From positions 1-29,471 of IMG/VR virus record IMGVR_UViG_3300048550_000035: a DNA stretch of 29,471 bases. One strand, written 5' to 3'. Shown here in pieces: positions 1 through 24,533 of the stretch. The translations under genes were made by a program, and so were the position numbers. A model generated the notes under the pieces. The model was given only the letters and a program-made list of their open reading frames with translations. It searched no databases and was not told the origin of the DNA. The first letter of the stretch is position 1; every line of letters starts with the position of its first letter. The stretch is from a virus.

Positions 1-657
1 CTCTGTCTCAAACTCTTCACGTACGCTATTGAGTACGTCAAGATTAACCTTGAACCCACGTTGATAGATACGTGCAAGACATACAGCCACTTGATCAGTC
101 AACTCTGCAGTATCTCTTAGCCCTGCATTGTCTGCTTCGTTGTACCTACGCATTAGGTTATGGTACACATCTTTAGTTGCCGATAGATCAGCACGTAAAT
201 ACTCACACAGTTCTGCATGTGGTATGTCACGTGTGCTGTAGCCCTTGGCAAAGTATTCTTTAAGGGTGTCCTGTTTAGGAGTAGCCCCATATCGTTCAGC
301 ACAAGCTTGAAGAGATAGCGGTTCTTTCACGCCACGTTGTAAGACATACTCATTAAGCATAGTATCATACACTTCACCCTTATAAACGAAACCTGATTCC
401 CATAGCCACAGTAAATCATATGCAATATTGTGACCAATTAATAAAGTTGTTTGATCTAATGTCATTTGTAATTCTTCCTTACCATTAAAGGTGGGTTCAA
501 TATCTGCATGATCAAATGTGTATATGCGAGGAAGAGAATCCTGTTCCACCCCCTGTACACCCACCATAACCAGAGTGTTGTCAGACTCAAATGGATCAAG
601 GTGCATCTTGCCATCACGTTTGGTTACTGTGTTCTCTACATCAAGTACTAGTTTCAT
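1..657 (-). CDS. DNA polymerase, family A, N-terminal 3'-5' exonuclease part (truncated by window edge)
   Basis: The reading frame starts at an ATG at 657 and is still open at base 1, giving 219 N-terminal residues. A proofreading exonuclease fold is visible. Motif Exo I is LVLDVENT at residues 3-10 with the D-x-E metal ligands, Exo II is IGHNIAYDLLWLW with N and D, and Exo III is CEYLRADLSATKDVY with the Y-x3-D pattern. This arrangement is that of T7-like and other phage family A replicative polymerases; the polymerase domain itself lies beyond the window. The start overlaps the end of the GIY-YIG gene by 17 bases, so it is the last visible gene of the leftward replication operon. The exonuclease domain is clear; assignment to family A rather than a free-standing exonuclease is inferred from the helicase and primase beside it. 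Confidence 0.85.
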   Translation of the reverse strand, partial: MKLVLDVENTVTKRDGKMHLDPFESDNTLVMVGVQGVEQDSLPRIYTFDHADIEPTFNGKEELQMTLDQTTLLIGHNIAYDLLWLWESGFVYKGEVYDTMLNEYVLQRGVKEPLSLQACAERYGATPKQDTLKEYFAKGYSTRDIPHAELCEYLRADLSATKDVYHNLMRRYNEADNAGLRDTAELTDQVAVCLARIYQRGFKVNLDVLNSVREEFETE

Positions 658-1108
658 CGGTCACTCCTTCTATTACAGTGATAGCGTCATGCTTACTCAT
701 CTTAAACCACTCACCATTACTGTCACTTGCTAGTCTACGTGCGTTGTGGTGTGCCGTTTTTTCTGCTACTCCTTTATCGTCAAACATTTTACAGAACTCT
801 AACACATAATCTCGCAGAGGTGAAGAGGTTTGATAGCTTGAACATCTATCTTCTGCATCAACTGCCATGCCTATCTTGATCCAACCTGGCCACGCTTGAT
901 TAGAGATAGCGTACACATACCCTTCTTTAATTTTATTGTATGCTTTTATTGTATTGTTAGACAGTAATTTTACTGTACGTCTTAACGCATTTTGCCTGTC
1001 CACTATGGCTGCACACTTGTTGCACTTGTATTGTTTAGTTTTCTGGTTGGCTAGATACCAATTCTCATCGACTAATTTTATTCCACAGAATCTACAGTCT
1101 TTGCTCAT
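641..1108 (-). CDS. GIY-YIG (T5orf172-type) nuclease-like protein with N-terminal zinc ribbon
   Basis: This is a 155-residue protein. Residues 6-9 (CRFC) and 29-32 (CNKC) form a four-cysteine zinc ribbon. Residues about 63-148 match the T5orf172/MUG113 branch of GIY-YIG: GYVYAIS replaces the GIY strand, WIKIG replaces the YIG strand, an arginine follows in AEDRCSSYQTSSP, a glutamate is in the AEKTAHH helix, and GEWF is near the end. Proteins of this branch are often phage-borne and some are homing-type nucleases, but activity cannot be assumed. The ATG overlaps the helicase stop by four bases (ATGA) and the stop overlaps the polymerase start, so it is co-translated within the replication operon. 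Confidence 0.8.
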   Translation of the reverse strand: MSKDCRFCGIKLVDENWYLANQKTKQYKCNKCAAIVDRQNALRRTVKLLSNNTIKAYNKIKEGYVYAISNQAWPGWIKIGMAVDAEDRCSSYQTSSPLRDYVLEFCKMFDDKGVAEKTAHHNARRLASDSNGEWFKMSKHDAITVIEGVTDETST

Positions 1109-5124: not shown

Positions 5125-5153
5125 GTTATACCATGTATACTAACTAGAGTCAA
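5125..5153 (-). promoter_or_regulatory. sigma70-type promoter for the replication operon
   Basis: On the minus strand TTGACT (5153-5148) is followed by a 17-base spacer and TATAAC (5130-5125). Transcription would start near 5118, about 32 bases before the DUF932 ATG. The -35 box includes the TGA stop codon of the upstream nuclease gene. The spacer and -10 contain CTAGTTA...TAACTAG (5122-5128 and 5141-5147), a 7-bp inverted repeat that could be an operator. Confidence 0.65.
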
Positions 5154-5461
5154 GCTAATACTAATCTATTATTGTCATTCATATAACGTACCTTACCATC
5201 TCTGATAGTGGCACATCTTACTCCTAGTTTTTCTTGCCACTTGTTAGGTGTCAATGTTTCTTTTGACTTACCTGTTTTCATGTCAAGATACAGGTAGTCT
5301 TTCTTGTTGGGCCTGTATACAATCATGTCTATCTTACCAATGCATGATGCATTTCTGAATACCTCATACCCTTTGTCAAGTAAGATACTTGTTGCCATAA
5401 TTTCTGTTATGTCACCCTGTCTGTTAGGTGCATGTTTACTTTGATATTTTTTCTTACGCAT
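5150..5461 (-). CDS. small PD-(D/E)XK nuclease (endonuclease/Holliday-resolvase-like)
   Basis: This is a 103-residue protein. The pattern of a PD-(D/E)XK core is visible: E20 in GDITEIMATSILLDKGY (first helix), D45 in IGKIDMIVY (second strand), and D60-M-K62 in YLYLDMKTGK (third strand). The length and order fit single-domain archaeal-resolvase-like and VSR-like phage nucleases. A role in recombination or in processing replication intermediates is inferred from its position between lysis/nucleotide genes and the replication operon. The start has AAGGGAATAAC before it. The stop lies inside the -35 box of the next promoter. Confidence 0.75.
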   Translation of the reverse strand: MRKKKYQSKHAPNRQGDITEIMATSILLDKGYEVFRNASCIGKIDMIVYRPNKKDYLYLDMKTGKSKETLTPNKWQEKLGVRCATIRDGKVRYMNDNNRLVLA

Positions 5462-5945: not shown

Positions 5946-6482
5946 CTAAAAATCTCCTCGTACTTTTTGTATAAGCTTAATTGCTTTATGCAATTCTTCT
6001 TCTAGCCTAGAGATCTTATCTCTGTTAGCTTGCCATAGAATACCTATCCCACCTGCATCTGTCCACTGCTTTACATTAGTGTGCTTGTCATCAATAAGAA
6101 TGTTGGGTGTACCATCTATCCTATCAGTAGCAAACTTGTGCTTGGTGTGGGTAAAGATCAGCCTATGTTTAGGTGGCATTAGACCATGCGATTCCAACCA
6201 TCTACGTTTCCAATAGACACAGTTATCTCTGTCATTACGCAATGGTGTAGAACATATGCCCCAACCTAAGTGAGGATACTTGTACGTCAACTCTTTGATG
6301 TGACCCACAAGATGATAGGTTGTATCAAATGCTTTTAGATTCCAAAAGAAATTGGTATCCTTTAATTGAGCAAGAGCTTCATTAATATCTTTGATATCTT
6401 TCCAATGAGCCACATCAAAGTGTGCTTCTAGCCCACCAAAGAAGTCAGCTAACACACCATCCATATCTAAATATATAATCAT
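5946..6482 (-). CDS. HAD-superfamily 5'(3')-deoxyribonucleotidase-like phosphatase
   Basis: This is a 178-residue protein. Motif I is YLDMDGVLADF with the nucleophile D6 and acid/base D8, followed by the NT5C-type pattern. Motif II is in GICSTP (S78 or T79). A lysine lies in THTKHKFA, and motif IV is ILIDDK (D131, D132). This matches the NT5C/YorS group, which dephosphorylates deoxynucleoside monophosphates, so a role in nucleotide pool control is likely. The start overlaps the methyltransferase stop by four bases (ATGA), showing translational coupling. Confidence 0.8.
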   Translation of the reverse strand: MIIYLDMDGVLADFFGGLEAHFDVAHWKDIKDINEALAQLKDTNFFWNLKAFDTTYHLVGHIKELTYKYPHLGWGICSTPLRNDRDNCVYWKRRWLESHGLMPPKHRLIFTHTKHKFATDRIDGTPNILIDDKHTNVKQWTDAGGIGILWQANRDKISRLEEELHKAIKLIQKVRGDF

Positions 6483-7465
6483 CTCTTTACTCCTTTCAAT
6501 GCTTGGTATCCACAGCCACAGCCATCAAACAAACTAACGACAGTACCCAACTTATCTTGTGGTATGCCATTGAGTATGTGCTTGATAACATCCACTGTCC
6601 AACCATTGCCAATCATCTTGTACCGCCTTGAATTGCTTATCTCTTTCATGGGTTTAGTAAGACCATCAGCATCGTGCATGTCACCATACTTTGTGTACCC
6701 ATCAGGCATAGTCTGCAATCGTTCACACTCAAGAGGTGTCAATGCTCTCCAACGCAAGTCACCATCCTCAACCTTCGGCATGCGCCACCCACCTTGCATG
6801 GTGGTCAGGCCAGAGGACTTAGCTTTGCGAGAGTAGACACGCTTGATAATGTCATAGCCTTTGAGGTTAGCTTCACCCACTTGTCTACACTGAGTGTGCT
6901 TGTTGAACACCACTTGTCTACGTGACTTCTCAAAGTACATCTTCATAGATCCACCCTTGAAATAGTTAGCGTCTACACAGTAGGCTTTCTCCCTGTCGGT
7001 CATGCTCTCATCCTCAAGGATATCCTCAAGGTTGATACCAAGATCAGGCAGATCGTCATGGGGTATGTTAGTCCAATACAATCTCTTCCTGTTCTGTGCA
7101 GACACAGACGCAGAGTTATGTACTCTAGGTTCACACCCAAACTCATGTGAGAATATGTCTTGATACTCCTTCTTCATAGGTGTCTCTTCAATTAGGAAGT
7201 ACTTAGGCTTCCACTGGTGAAACAATCTGAAGAACTCTATCGTTGGCTTGGCTCTCTCGTCATTGAAGTTAAGCTGATTACCTGCAAAGGAGAAGGGTTG
7301 ACAAGGTGGGCCTGCCATTAGCAGGTCTATACCTTTGTGTACATACATAGGATGCTTGTGCATATCAAGTACGCTACCCATCTGCTTTACCATAGGATGA
7401 TTGTAGTGAGCGACCCCCATAGAGTAGGGGTCTATCTCACTTGCGAATGCTTGTTGGTATTGCAT
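6479..7465 (-). CDS. DNA cytosine-5 methyltransferase, circularly permuted
   Basis: This 328-residue enzyme should methylate cytosine in DNA with AdoMet. Motifs in order are: a motif II-like segment (FASEIDPYS, 7-15), motif IV with catalytic Cys55 (GPPCQPFSFAG), motif VI position LIEETPM (E-E-T instead of the usual E-N-V), motif VIII QNRKRLYW (124-131), a variable target-recognition stretch to about 235, motif IX LTPLECERLQTMPDGYT (242-258), motif X GNGWTVDVI (286-294), and finally motif I VVSLFDGCGCGYQALKG (309-325). Motif I is normally first. The ATG overlaps the upstream stop (TAATG), and an in-frame TAA two codons earlier rules out an upstream motif I. A palindromic repeat lies 24 bases upstream. 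The motifs are clear; activity and target are unknown. Confidence 0.9.
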   Translation of the reverse strand: MQYQQAFASEIDPYSMGVAHYNHPMVKQMGSVLDMHKHPMYVHKGIDLLMAGPPCQPFSFAGNQLNFNDERAKPTIEFFRLFHQWKPKYFLIEETPMKKEYQDIFSHEFGCEPRVHNSASVSAQNRKRLYWTNIPHDDLPDLGINLEDILEDESMTDREKAYCVDANYFKGGSMKMYFEKSRRQVVFNKHTQCRQVGEANLKGYDIIKRVYSRKAKSSGLTTMQGGWRMPKVEDGDLRWRALTPLECERLQTMPDGYTKYGDMHDADGLTKPMKEISNSRRYKMIGNGWTVDVIKHILNGIPQDKLGTVVSLFDGCGCGYQALKGVKR

Positions 7466-7794
7466 TAACCATTAACCTTTCTCTTGGACTGTCCAACGTT
7501 GGACACTTTGTGAGTACCTTTATCGATCGTAACACCACGCTTGAATACAATGGTATCAGGGTGATTCTTTTGTAGGAAAGCTACACGATACGCAATCCTA
7601 TTCTTGGACTCGTTAAGTATAGATGCGGTCTGCTTGATGGTGTATTCGTCATACATTTCCATCAGTATACCATCAATGATAGCGTAGTTGTAGGTGAAAG
7701 GCATAGCCTTTTTGAAATGCTTAGTGTGCGTTGAATAGTCCACGACATTTATTGCAGGGTTTTCGTTCTTAATTGTGTTGGTTTCTTTTGTCAT
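7465..7794 (-). CDS. small probable helix-turn-helix protein
   Basis: This 109-residue protein is not assigned to a named family. Residues about 44-76, YDEYTIKQTASILNESKNRI onward, have the spacing of a helix-turn-helix (alanine in the first helix, LNES turn, RIAYRV recognition-type helix). The basic C-terminus, ending near SNVGQSKRK, is encoded across a copy of the 16-bp palindrome. The protein sits between two overlapping genes (4 bases upstream, 1 base downstream). It is a candidate regulator that might bind the palindrome, but no evidence beyond position and fold guess supports this. Confidence 0.6.
   Translation of the reverse strand: MTKETNTIKNENPAINVVDYSTHTKHFKKAMPFTYNYAIIDGILMEMYDEYTIKQTASILNESKNRIAYRVAFLQKNHPDTIVFKRGVTIDKGTHKVSNVGQSKRKVNG
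7490..7505. repeat. 16-bp palindrome, copy 1 (exact)
   Basis: TGTCCAACGTTGGACA, a perfect palindrome. It lies inside the 3' end of the HTH gene, where it helps encode SNVGQS, and 24 bases before the methyltransferase ATG. Confidence 0.85.
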
Positions 7795-8048
7795 ATCAAG
7801 TTCTCCTTATCATATGATGTTGCGTCTTGGGGTTGGTGTATGTAACCTAGATTACTAGGCTCATCTTCAATCTCGTACTCTTTTACGAAATCAAATTCGG
7901 TGGTGAAGGTAGGGTAGAATAGTTTTGCTAGTCGCATCACATGATCTACCGCATCCTTCCAATCTTTTACAGGTGTAGCATTGCTATCTAGTGTCACGAT
8001 AGATGGTTGCTTTTCTATTGATATACCTATCTCGTAATAAGTTGCCAT
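7791..8048 (-). CDS. hypothetical 85-residue protein
   Basis: I do not recognise this protein. It starts MATYYEIGISIEKQP, has a predicted strand-helix pattern with a KDWKDAVDHVMRLAK helix, and ends in an acidic, polar tail. The ATG at 8048 is chosen because GAAGGAGATGAC lies just before it; an upstream in-frame start at 8069 would ignore that site. The stop overlaps the next start (ATGA). Confidence 0.65.
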   Translation of the reverse strand: MATYYEIGISIEKQPSIVTLDSNATPVKDWKDAVDHVMRLAKLFYPTFTTEFDFVKEYEIEDEPSNLGYIHQPQDATSYDKENLI

Positions 8049-8049
8049 G

Positions 8050-8169
8050 TCATCTCCTTCGTTTAGCAAGGCTATCTATCTTAGCGATAAGCCAACCTGT
8101 TATGAAGCATGCATATCCAAATACACATGCCATGAAAAACCACATATAAATTTCTGGTATCTGTTCCAT
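8050..8169 (-). CDS. 39-residue single-pass membrane protein
   Basis: The peptide begins MEQIPEIYMWFFMACVFGYA and continues with CFITGWLIA, then KIDSLAKRRR. It has one transmembrane segment and a basic C-terminus, so an outside-to-inside orientation with the tail in the cytoplasm is predicted. Its ATG overlaps the stop of the upstream basic peptide (TGATG), and its stop is one base from the next start. It is too short to assign; the hydrophobic pattern and tight coupling support that it is real. Confidence 0.6.
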   Translation of the reverse strand: MEQIPEIYMWFFMACVFGYACFITGWLIAKIDSLAKRRR

Positions 8170-21612: not shown

Positions 21613-21787
21613 TCCAAAGCTATGGGATGCGTTTGTTGAGTATTTAGAATATCATATACAAAATCATACTAGAATAATGGAACAGACAGATAATCAAGAT
21701 CTGTGGAAAAGATCACAAGGATCATTAGCTATACTTAGAAAGCTACACTCACTTAGGGAAGAAGTAAATGTTAAAGAAATCTCGTAA
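21563..21787 (+). CDS. small protein between portal and virion protein genes
   Basis: This 74-residue protein contains NNPKLWDAFVEYLEYHIQNH and GSLAILRKLHSLREEVN, largely helical. Small helical genes with this kind of sequence often follow the portal gene in related marine phages; their function is not known to me. The start at 21563 overlaps the portal by 50 bases with AGG close before it, and the end overlaps the next gene by 20 bases. Confidence 0.6.
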   Translation: MHNHKELLNHLKPLCNNPKLWDAFVEYLEYHIQNHTRIMEQTDNQDLWKRSQGSLAILRKLHSLREEVNVKEIS

Positions 21788-24533
21788 GAAGGTTGGCAAA
21801 CCCACAGGAGAAACAACAAAATCAGGTAGGCCTGTATATATAGATGATGATACAGGTGAAAGACGTTCAGAATTTTCTAGAACTATTAAATTAAAAAATG
21901 GTAAATGGATTAATATTCCTAGTATACATAATGGTCATTATTATACAGAAGATGAATTAAAAGAAGCTGTAGAAGATAATCGTATGATTCCTACTAGTGA
22001 ACATGACAATTTTAATGAAGCTATAGCAGCTACAAAAAAAAGGAGTAAGGAATTGAAACAGGGTGGAGTATTAAAAGCACATCAAGGCACAGTTGTAAAT
22101 GGTCAGATAGTCTATCCACAGACTTCTCAAGCACCATCTGATCCCAACCCAATAGCTGATCCTTTTTTAACTGATCCTAACACAATTCCACCACAACAAA
22201 TAACAACACCTATGATAAAAAAAGCTGCCGATATAGGACAAGAAAGTGTAATATATGAAAAACCTATGAGTGCATACGATCAAACGCATCAAGATGGGGG
22301 GCATAAAGTATTTACTAAAAATGATATGGGTGATCCTGCAGAAGATTTTGTTAAACATGATGATACTTCAGGACTTCATGGTAGTCAACCTGTTAAAAGT
22401 TATGATTTTTCAACAGTCAGTACTCCACTTCAAGGAGGAATGACACAAGCAAACTTAGAAGCAACAGGAAAAGCATCACAACCTGCAGAACAGAAACCAC
22501 AATATACAAGTCTTAAAGAGTTTCTTAGTGGTAAAACTAATACCTTACAAGATTATTTAGATCAAAACAATAGAGCTAAATTAGTACAACAGTTTAGTAA
22601 GGATTTTAACTTAGATCAAAAAGGCAGAAACATAGCAATGCCTATGATAGAAAAAATGGAAAGTATAAAAGCAAAATATGAACCTAAATTGCTTGAGTTA
22701 CAATTTAAACTTGAAAATAATCAAATTGATCCAAAAGAAGCTCAAAATCAAATGAATACTGTTTATGCGTTACAAATGGCAGAACAACAACAAGTAGGAA
22801 AAAACAATGCATCTTTAAGTCAAGACATAGCAATGCAACAATCTAATCTAGAAAAACAATTTGAAGATGCTTTTTTTAAACAGTATAAACCTGTAGGACA
22901 GGGAAATACAATCAGTAAACCAATGGCGTTCAATGAAGGTGGTACAGTTATGGAAGAACAAATGGAATTATTTGATGAAGGTGGTATGAAAGATGATGGT
23001 GGGGAAAAAGATCCTGTATCAGGAAATGATGTACCATCAGGATCAATGGCAAAAGAAGTACGAGATGATGTGCCTGCTATGGTTAGCGAAGGTGAATTTA
23101 TTTTTCCTGCAGATGTAACACGCTTTATAGGTTTAAATAATTTAATGGAAATGCGACAAGATGCTAAGATGGGATTAAAGAAAATGGAAGCTATGGGTCA
23201 GTTAGGTAATCCTGAAGATGCTGACCTTCCTGATGATATTCCATTTGATGCTGCTGATATTCTTATTATGAGTGATATGGAAGAAGAAGAAGAAGTTGAA
23301 AAGAAAGCACAAGGCGGTGTATTTGGATATCAAGAAGGAACTGCAGGGCCTGAAGCAGCAGATAAGTATTTTAATATACAGAAAGAAGCAAACAAACAAT
23401 ACGCTAAAACATATGCATATTATAAAAATGATGCAGGTGATATGAAAGCTATACTGACTGACTATAGAGGACAGCCACTTGAACCTGTGCCATCTGGATA
23501 CAAGCTTATGTTAAATGAAGATGGATCTCCTGTAACAAAAAAACCTGAGAAAGCTCCTGACGATATTGAAGCAACTCAACCTGCACCTGCAGAACAAACA
23601 TCTAATAACGAGCGTGAGGCTGAACCTGATCCTATGTATTCATCTGAATATCTTGCTGATAAGTTTAAAGGAGATGTGATTACTGATAAGAATGGTAATC
23701 CTATTAGCATGACAGAGCAAGGATATAATGCAGTATTAACATCAGCACAAAGACTTGGACTGTCAGCTAATGACTATTTTAGTTTACCTATGTCTGCACG
23801 TATGGAGTTAGCAGGAGAAGAAATGAAAGCCTTGTTTGGTGGTACAGCCGATACTAAAAAAGCAAGTGATGTTTTAAGGCAAGTACAAAGTGGTGAATGG
23901 AAAGGTGGCAGTGGATTTTTAAGTAGTTTATTTGGCGGTATCTTTGATAAGATTACAGGTTTATTTAGTCCTGATGGAGCTACAGATGAACAAGCAATTC
24001 AAAGTCTGGATAAAGCTAAACGTAATATTGATCCTTTAGCTAATTCTTACTCTGCTAATGTTCCTAATAGAGACAGACAAGCTACTGCATCAGAAAAACA
24101 AGGTGCCGCAAATAGAATGAAAAACAAGTACACAGGCCCACTTACTAGAGAAAAAAGAAAAAATGATTTAGCAACACGCTATGGTTATGATTCAAGTCCC
24201 GGTACTAATATGGGAAGACAAGCAATGGCAAATGCTAGAACTTCTCAAAGTAATGAAAATAGAAGAGATCAAGGAGATAAAGGTTTTGCCTCAGAGAATG
24301 CTATAAAAAATAGAACAGATTCATCGGGCAAAAAAGCAGGAGATACAGGGTATAAAAGTGCATTAAGAGAAAGAAAAGAAAGAGATAAATCTGTTGCAAA
24401 GGCAACTTCTAGAAACATTGAAGAAGGAAGAAAAACAGGTAATTATAGAGGATTTGCATCAGGAACAATGGTAACTAAACCTAAAAAGAAACCAACACCC
24501 AAGAGGAAGACTTTAGTACAAAAGAAATCCTAA
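21768..24533 (+). CDS. large modular virion-associated protein, function unknown
   Basis: This is a 921-residue protein. An N-terminal module (about 15-95) includes SGRPVYIDDDTGERRSEFS, GKWINIPSIHNGHYYTEDE and NFNEAIAATKKR. A helical middle part follows (about 245-375). The next module, with MAKEVRDDVPAMVSEGEFIF, FPADVTRFIGLNNLMEMRQD and DLPDDIPFDAADILIMSDM, is of a type I recall as frequent in marine podovirus-like phages. Glycine motifs recur: KQGGVLKAHQGT, NEGGTVMEE, KAQGGVFGYQEGT and RGFASGTMV. The tail is basic. The position between portal and scaffold suggests a structural or ejected protein. No enzyme motif is visible. Confidence 0.7.
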   Translation: MLKKSRKKVGKPTGETTKSGRPVYIDDDTGERRSEFSRTIKLKNGKWINIPSIHNGHYYTEDELKEAVEDNRMIPTSEHDNFNEAIAATKKRSKELKQGGVLKAHQGTVVNGQIVYPQTSQAPSDPNPIADPFLTDPNTIPPQQITTPMIKKAADIGQESVIYEKPMSAYDQTHQDGGHKVFTKNDMGDPAEDFVKHDDTSGLHGSQPVKSYDFSTVSTPLQGGMTQANLEATGKASQPAEQKPQYTSLKEFLSGKTNTLQDYLDQNNRAKLVQQFSKDFNLDQKGRNIAMPMIEKMESIKAKYEPKLLELQFKLENNQIDPKEAQNQMNTVYALQMAEQQQVGKNNASLSQDIAMQQSNLEKQFEDAFFKQYKPVGQGNTISKPMAFNEGGTVMEEQMELFDEGGMKDDGGEKDPVSGNDVPSGSMAKEVRDDVPAMVSEGEFIFPADVTRFIGLNNLMEMRQDAKMGLKKMEAMGQLGNPEDADLPDDIPFDAADILIMSDMEEEEEVEKKAQGGVFGYQEGTAGPEAADKYFNIQKEANKQYAKTYAYYKNDAGDMKAILTDYRGQPLEPVPSGYKLMLNEDGSPVTKKPEKAPDDIEATQPAPAEQTSNNEREAEPDPMYSSEYLADKFKGDVITDKNGNPISMTEQGYNAVLTSAQRLGLSANDYFSLPMSARMELAGEEMKALFGGTADTKKASDVLRQVQSGEWKGGSGFLSSLFGGIFDKITGLFSPDGATDEQAIQSLDKAKRNIDPLANSYSANVPNRDRQATASEKQGAANRMKNKYTGPLTREKRKNDLATRYGYDSSPGTNMGRQAMANARTSQSNENRRDQGDKGFASENAIKNRTDSSGKKAGDTGYKSALRERKERDKSVAKATSRNIEEGRKTGNYRGFASGTMVTKPKKKPTPKRKTLVQKKS

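Follow-up and report, generated by a model that had tools for sequence, protein, structure and literature searches.

A phage cytosine-C5 DNA methyltransferase gene circularly permuted between motifs I and II

The gene described here encodes a predicted cytosine-C5 DNA methyltransferase whose chain opens with motif II and closes with motif I. It lies in a viral DNA stretch of 29,471 nucleotides (IMG/VR record IMGVR_UViG_3300048550_000035), the whole of which we call the window. A sequence-only reading of the window had described a permuted gene of this kind; our check of the open reading frames (ORFs) returned the same coordinates and added the strand, minus, which that reading had not given (Table 1).

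Motif order of the permuted gene

The ORF of 328 amino acids reads M-QYQQA-FASEIDP (motif II), GPPCQPFS (IV), IEET (VI) and SAQNRKRLYW (VIII), continues with LTPLECERLQT (IX) and GNGWTVDVI (X), and then gives VVSLFDGCGCGYQALKG (I), followed by VKR and the stop codon. Motif labels were assigned by similarity to conventional relatives. The order is II-IV-VI-VIII-IX-X-I, with motif I three residues before the stop and none ahead of motif II, which places the break between motifs I and II, Type A in the lettering of Albert et al. 2018 (PMC5944983). The N-terminus precedes motif II and does not lie in the variable region between VIII and IX, as it does in Type H. An in-frame TAA just 5' of the ATG, also the stop of the upstream gene, excludes a missed N-terminus, as had been claimed; it is found two codons before the ATG, and the stop-to-stop frame begins W-L-M. 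Both the circular permutation and the motif order are confirmed observations.

Table 1. Features of the permuted methyltransferase gene and its immediate neighbours in the window.
Feature	Position	Strand	Remarks
Circularly permuted C5 cytosine DNA methyltransferase, 328 aa	6479..7465	-	ATG at 7465, TGA at 6481-6479; PF00145 89.3 bits, gathering 22; predicted fold Z 21.4 to M.HhaI and DNMT3A
New N-terminus with motif II, residues 2-17, QYQQAFASEIDPYSMG	7415..7462	-	Aligned to motif II of conventional relatives
Motif IV region, catalytic Cys55, residues 45-65	7271..7333	-	C55 invariant in 39/39 aligned rows
Motif VI IEET, residues 92-95	7181..7192	-	Glu93 kept; Asn-Val of ENV replaced by Glu-Thr; EET in 8/8 close members
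Motif VIII SVSAQNRKRLYW, residues 120-131 (Q124, R126, R128)	7073..7108	-	Sequence and alignment
Target recognition domain, residues 137-238	6752..7057	-	77% aa / 75% nt identity to L018, same-locus conventional-order gene of related phages
Motif X, residues 276-300, ISNSRRYKMIGNGWTVDVIKHILNG	6566..6640	-	Sequence and alignment to relatives
Displaced motif I (beta-1 plus the helix after it), residues 307-328, GTVVSLFDGCGCGYQALKGVKR	6482..6547	-	25.3 bits against conventional motif I profile; model strand 305-312, helix 318-324
AAAGGAG, Shine-Dalgarno-like	6490..6496	-	7 nt before ATG of downstream gene, inside codons just after motif I; putative function
5'(3')-deoxyribonucleotidase-like protein (NT5C), 178 aa, downstream gene	5946..6482	-	PF06941 2.5e-07, phrog_2643 4.4e-22; ATGA overlap with methyltransferase stop
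Upstream gene, 109 aa, no assigned function	7465..7794	-	Its TAA overlaps methyltransferase ATG

The displaced motif I is far outside what chance would produce. A motif I profile built from 37 conventional relatives only, with all permuted sequences left out, scored the window tail at 25.3 bits, compared with 14.3 for the top score among 20,000 shuffled versions of the tail and 5.8 for the best of 5,622 tails from non-methyltransferase ORFs, and these two controls rule out a chance match. Pfam PF00145 aligned residues 4-301 with profile positions 23-322 of 324, that is, without motif I. When the sequence was rotated in silico to put motif I first, the Pfam score rose from 89.3 to 102.0 bits and coverage was extended to positions 2-322; joining the C-terminus to the N-terminus therefore restores an ordinary methyltransferase, as the sequence-only reading had proposed. 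The NCBIfam model TIGR00675 (dcm) scored the protein at 88.7 bits, below its cut-off of 100.65, and hence the protein is not filed in that family. Pfam detects permuted enzymes but cuts their matches short, and annotation based on cut-offs can miss them. A further family, phrog_17284 (unknown function), matches residues 231-323 (window 6497-6775, minus strand) at its positions 151-236 of 245; since this match covers the X-I part up to near the family's own end, phrog_17284 may consist of permuted methyltransferases.

A C-terminal motif I might instead be the remnant of a second, decayed gene, contributing nothing to a degenerate methyltransferase that has lost its N-terminal motif I. Tandem methyltransferase genes are frequent in viral contigs, which makes such a remnant plausible as an origin. 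However, the segment is in frame behind a 10-residue linker, ends where it would rejoin the new N-terminus almost without a gap, and is kept at the protein level in eight contigs and in a ninth of different sequence; we give this reading very little credence.

Predicted fold and catalytic residues

A first AlphaFold2 model, made with 39 sequences, had a pLDDT of 66.9 and a pTM of 0.71 and ended in a strand (306-313) followed by a helix. A second model, made with 31 sequences after compact Type C relatives (see below) had been added, reached a pLDDT of 76.2 and a pTM of 0.80, with the strand at 305-312 and the helix at 318-324. In this second model the ten-residue blocks from residue 301 had pLDDT values of 92, 83 and 82, and residues 154-192 fell below 50. 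VIA-align placed model residues 1-305 on M.HhaI 31-323 (Z 21.4, rmsd 3.4, 266 aligned) and on M.MpeI 31-392 (Z 21.1, rmsd 3.0, 272 aligned), and residues 1-306 on DNMT3A 655-911 (Z 21.4, rmsd 2.7, 232 aligned). The superposed part comprises all but the N-terminal part of each target, where the target's motif I sits, and the VIA-align ranges end at residue 306. The protein is thus predicted to have the C5-methyltransferase fold. The sequence-only reading had expected the motif I strand to lie beside the motif II strand; the model bears out a confident C-terminal strand and helix and a remainder that superposes on M.HhaI from residue 31, and from this fold we infer that the two strands would be adjacent. 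A search of predicted viral structures returned methyltransferases only, with partial or poor superposition.

The motifs of these enzymes carry characteristic residues, namely Pro-Cys in IV, Glu-Asn-Val in VI, QxRxR in VIII and GN in X. Residues P54, C55, E93, Q124, R126, R128, G286 and N287 were invariant in all 39 aligned rows, and F313, D314, G315, G317 and G319 of motif I were invariant within the close family. Motif VI reads EET rather than ENV in all eight close members, with Glu93 retained, and because of this replacement methyltransferase activity may be lost or altered. The protein would then be permuted and folded but dead or altered in catalysis, EET having abolished methylation, and kept as a DNA-binding or regulatory factor; the score under the NCBIfam cut-off points the same way. 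Against it stand the invariance of Cys55, Glu93 and the motif VIII residues, that of the five motif I residues within the family, and a whole-gene replacement-to-silent ratio against the window gene of 0.17-0.27 (uncorrected proportions, five relatives, L004-L008), and we regard it as unlikely. That the protein is an active or once-active C5-methyltransferase is our best reading.

Taken as a whole, the best explanation, to which we assign a probability of roughly 0.8, is a cytosine-C5 DNA methyltransferase permuted between motifs I and II, with the following proposed architecture, function and origin. The chain would begin at beta-strand 2 (motif II) and pass the catalytic region and the target-recognition region before reaching the helix of motif X; a 10-residue linker would then lead to beta-strand 1, the loop of motif I and, at the chain end, the first helix. 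Once folded, this last segment would complete the S-adenosylmethionine pocket from the C-terminal side, a region in which enzymes of this class natively have their two termini near each other, as reported for M.MpeI (PMC5944983). The enzyme is most likely an ordinary base-flipping C5-methyltransferase without a partner nuclease and would modify phage DNA, perhaps against host restriction. Its origin was most likely a tandem duplication with trimming at both ends, combined with a recognition-domain exchange with the same-locus methyltransferase of related phages.

Conservation, phage context and mosaic origin

An IMG/VR scan with the window protein yielded 79 loci from the best 80 of 423 stretches encoding a relative. 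Seven of the 79 loci listed (L002-L008; 70-100% identity) are permuted in the same way and end with motif I, and two further scans with the C-terminal junction recovered the same seven contigs. Two of them, L002 and L003, are two bases away from the window gene and may come from the same population as the window phage. By eye, the other 72 loci have a stretch resembling motif I ahead of motif II (L080 is truncated by the contig end), and 15 of these conventional loci carry a deviant motif I, SLCGGTDSAYLS or similar. No Type A member was seen among the 80 loci listed from the genome scan of cellular genomes.

A frameshift in related genomes had been named as one of two results that would undo the sequence-only reading. 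All of the sequences are metagenome contigs, and a ninth copy (below) contains 10 consecutive N within the gene, both of which favour an assembly or frameshift artefact. The same arrangement is, however, present in the window and in seven separate contigs of 70-100% identity, three of which (L005, L007, L008) have different immediate neighbours, and because those seven contigs agree the artefact is excluded; for the main permuted family we consider it refuted.

The ninth copy, from the second junction scan, lies on contig IMGVR_UViG_3300030109_003688, with a best match of 53% over residues 7-233. Its N-terminus is directly at motif II, it has an in-frame X-I fusion at the C-terminus (FDGMSCG), and its motif VI is the canonical ENV. 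Since the 10-N assembly gap separates its two halves it could be a mis-joined scaffold. It shares the recognition domain with the permuted family but has another scaffold and falls outside the family clade, and for this reason it may represent a second origin or a recombinant.

Within the C-terminal 26 codons each pair had between 0.5 and 5 silent changes and between 0 and 6 replacement changes, which are too few to show selection on this segment alone. The codons that directly follow motif I include AAAGGAG, seven bases ahead of the downstream gene's start codon; this stretch may serve two purposes, and conservation of the segment may be partly due to the ribosome-binding site of the downstream gene.

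The large terminase of the window shares 77% identity with each of its counterparts in Puniceispirillum phage HMO-2011 and Roseobacter phage CRP-1, and the integrase, primase and DnaB genes are consecutive as in HMO-2011 (GU557055). Judged from these genes, the window phage is of the HMO-2011 type and marine. No tRNA genes were found in the window. At the edge of the replication genes (641-1108, minus strand) there is a protein with a T5orf172/MUG113 domain, which we take to be GIY-YIG-like, and a 921-aa ORF without a PHROG match lies beside a portal-like gene (21768-24533, plus strand). The available text of a paper on HMO-2011-type phages (PMC9038755) contains no words beginning methylase or methyltransfer.

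Rather than being a lone phage enzyme, the methyltransferase might be the partner of a Type II restriction-modification system, as a 103-aa gene nearby downstream (5150-5461, minus strand) looks PD-(D/E)XK-like by eye. This gene matches no Pfam or PADLOC model, weakly matches two PHROG families of unknown function, and was not seen beside L005, L007 and L008, whose flanks do contain the two genes that border it. A restriction-modification role is thus highly improbable, and a methyltransferase acting without a partner nuclease is the reading that we prefer.

The 15 loci with a deviant motif I (within L009-L030) all have a homologue of the window gene at 7791-8069 upstream; 11 of them reach far enough to show homologues of the hydrolase, integrase, primase and DnaB genes downstream, and the other four end soon after the gene. 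These shared neighbours indicate that this position is occupied in related phages by a methyltransferase with the conventional motif order. In such same-locus genes (e.g. L018:5857-6894) motif I reads SLCGGTDSAYLS instead of SLFDGMSCGQIAL, and the other motifs are recognisable.

Comparison by region revealed a mosaic. Against L018, identity (% aa/nt) was 77/75 in the recognition domain and 84/79 in motif IX but 40/48 in II-III, 36/47 in IV-VI and 49/50 in VII-VIII; nucleotide identity of the recognition domain to the two same-locus genes L019 and L018 was 73-75%. Against a conventional marine gene, L046, the pattern was reversed, with 65/65 in IV-VI and 46/51 in the recognition domain. The C-terminal motif I is closest to conventional or compact Type C enzymes outside the same-locus group. 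The permuted gene is therefore a mosaic, its recognition domain being almost that of the conventional gene at the same locus of related phages. In whole-core trees the six distinct close members form one clade (99; 100/99), sister to the same-locus group (99; 100/97); the rows of these trees (112 and 59) are a hand-picked or random subset of the loci. Separate trees for each half showed that the sister placement rests on the recognition half. Despite this sisterhood, the possibility that the permuted gene is simply the rearranged same-locus gene was not supported once regions were compared separately, because outside the recognition domain it is closer to other marine methyltransferases. The recognition domain shared at one HMO-2011-type locus suggests that scaffold, motif order and specificity have been exchanged separately.

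Other permutants, tandem arrays and known systems

Searches with two other X-I junctions revealed two further kinds of natural permutant, again lettered as in PMC5944983. Type C (IV-X, I-III) was represented by 31 intact ORFs in the 80 viral loci listed (35 were counted, 4 being the window family again) and by 15 of the 80 loci listed from the genome scan, mostly in Clostridia; a compact Type C protein is encoded in the Petroclostridium sp. X23 chromosome (L162). Type B (III-X, I-II) gave 24 intact ORFs in the 80 viral loci listed (L322-L401), with three more open at the contig end, and at 53 of these 80 loci motif IV and the X-I part are not in one ORF. For Faecalibacterium phage FP_Toutatis (L086) the annotation gives two genes. 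These II/III and III/IV breaks are found in gut and rumen phages and in Clostridia; among such phages it is common for a break other than Type A to bring motif I close to the C-terminus. An 880-aa Type C ORF (L274) has what looks by eye like an intein-like insertion right after the catalytic Pro-Cys (GGSPC, then FSGDTLIYTSEGYKQIKDI), and in the oyster-associated phage T2S2 (L092:1500-1900) a stop codon lies within motif I of an otherwise conventional methyltransferase.

A DNA pattern for the C-terminal junction was found at 66 loci, with 94 matches as counted by script. Thirteen matches are intact permuted genes (6 of the window family, 7 compact Type C), two are open at a contig end (one of the window family, the other the ninth copy), one is a fused tandem (L446), and 78 are tandem gene junctions in 51 loci. 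A second fused tandem was found on a Lachnospiraceae contig (L206). In each of six viral contigs (L457, L421, L441, L449, L446, L437) C5-methyltransferase genes follow one another head to tail, giving 3 to 5 pattern matches per contig. Among hand-picked examples the X-to-I linker is 10 residues long in two members of the window family, in the ninth copy and in three compact Type C proteins; it measures 14 residues in one L132-like Type C protein and 12 in one fused tandem.

Type B forms a long separate branch in the tree (support 100). A single origin for both Type C groups was rejected by an AU test (p 2.5e-5) for a grouping chosen after the first tree. The compact Type C group is not clean, as its rows need three changes in the careful tree and the conventional row L179 groups with L430. 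We somewhat favour the view that phage C5-methyltransferases have been permuted repeatedly, with no fewer than four separate origins (one each for Type A and Type B, two for Type C) and perhaps five, fed by head-to-tail tandem arrays and exploring break points thought absent in nature; the count of origins is weakened by the recombination of scaffolds and recognition domains. Tandem duplication followed by trimming was reportedly proposed as a route to permutation by Jeltsch in 1999 (cited in PMC5944983). This route fits the window gene since tandem arrays and fused tandems occur; no duplication intermediate of the window gene itself was found in our scans of viral contigs and genomes. The natural permutants are ready test cases for permutation by duplication.

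According to the available text of Albert et al. 2018 (PMC5944983), a survey of 20,677 REBASE entries gave 27 permuted C5-methyltransferases, each with its break in the variable region. Those authors asked whether nature uses permutations outside that region and found none in REBASE; Type B was seemingly absent from nature, and evolutionary paths leaving both domains intact were proposed as favoured. The sequence-only reading had called the break between motifs I and II a rarer form, with a break point unlike that of M.BssHII, and as all 27 natural permutants are broken in the variable region it is rarer than that reading could know. Our searches covered open-access literature, with most subscription papers and REBASE outside their scope, and within it no natural prokaryotic Type A, B or C permutant was found; in the available text of two later papers citing Albert et al. 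2018 (PMC10899764, PMC10073500) the search term occurred only within the reference lists. As far as these searches show, the window protein would be the first natural C5-methyltransferase broken between motifs I and II, a break described until now in engineered enzymes only, and the Type A phage family would answer by example the question that Albert et al. had stated. Natural breaks inside the S-adenosylmethionine-binding part contradict, for phages, the favoured intact-domain paths.

Of the known systems, the Type H enzymes M.BssHII, M.Alw26I, M.Esp3I, M2.Eco31I and M2.BsaI are likewise permuted C5-methyltransferases. However, the chain of these enzymes starts in the variable region, with IX and X ahead of I-VIII (PMC5944983, available text), whereas in the window protein X precedes I and the break is between I and II; the sequence-only reading had already given M.BssHII a different break point. 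Plant DRM is also a natural permutation of the C5-methyltransferase motif order, but it is eukaryotic and has another break point, VI-X preceding I-IV (PMC3934875, available text). The same-locus conventional enzymes at the 15 loci share neighbourhood and recognition domain with the window gene but have the order I-X, a deviant motif I and 36% amino acid identity in IV-VI, and the natural Type B and Type C proteins have motif I after motif X like the window protein but are broken between II and III or III and IV. Closest in break point are two engineered enzymes, cp35M.MpeI and cp33M.SssI, both described as active in vivo, with cp35 poorly soluble; the native termini of M.MpeI are close together (PMC5944983, available text). 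From that text, the residue numbering and our VIA-align result, we infer that both are broken between I and II and would carry the letter A. The same inter-motif segment is arrived at by elimination, the Type B constructs of that study starting at residues 62/58, between II and III; residue 1 of our model aligns to M.MpeI residue 31, and the cp35M.MpeI cut would thus lie four residues from the equivalent point. Both of these enzymes are man-made, whereas the natural protein belongs to a separate phage lineage and has a linker and a recognition domain of its own.
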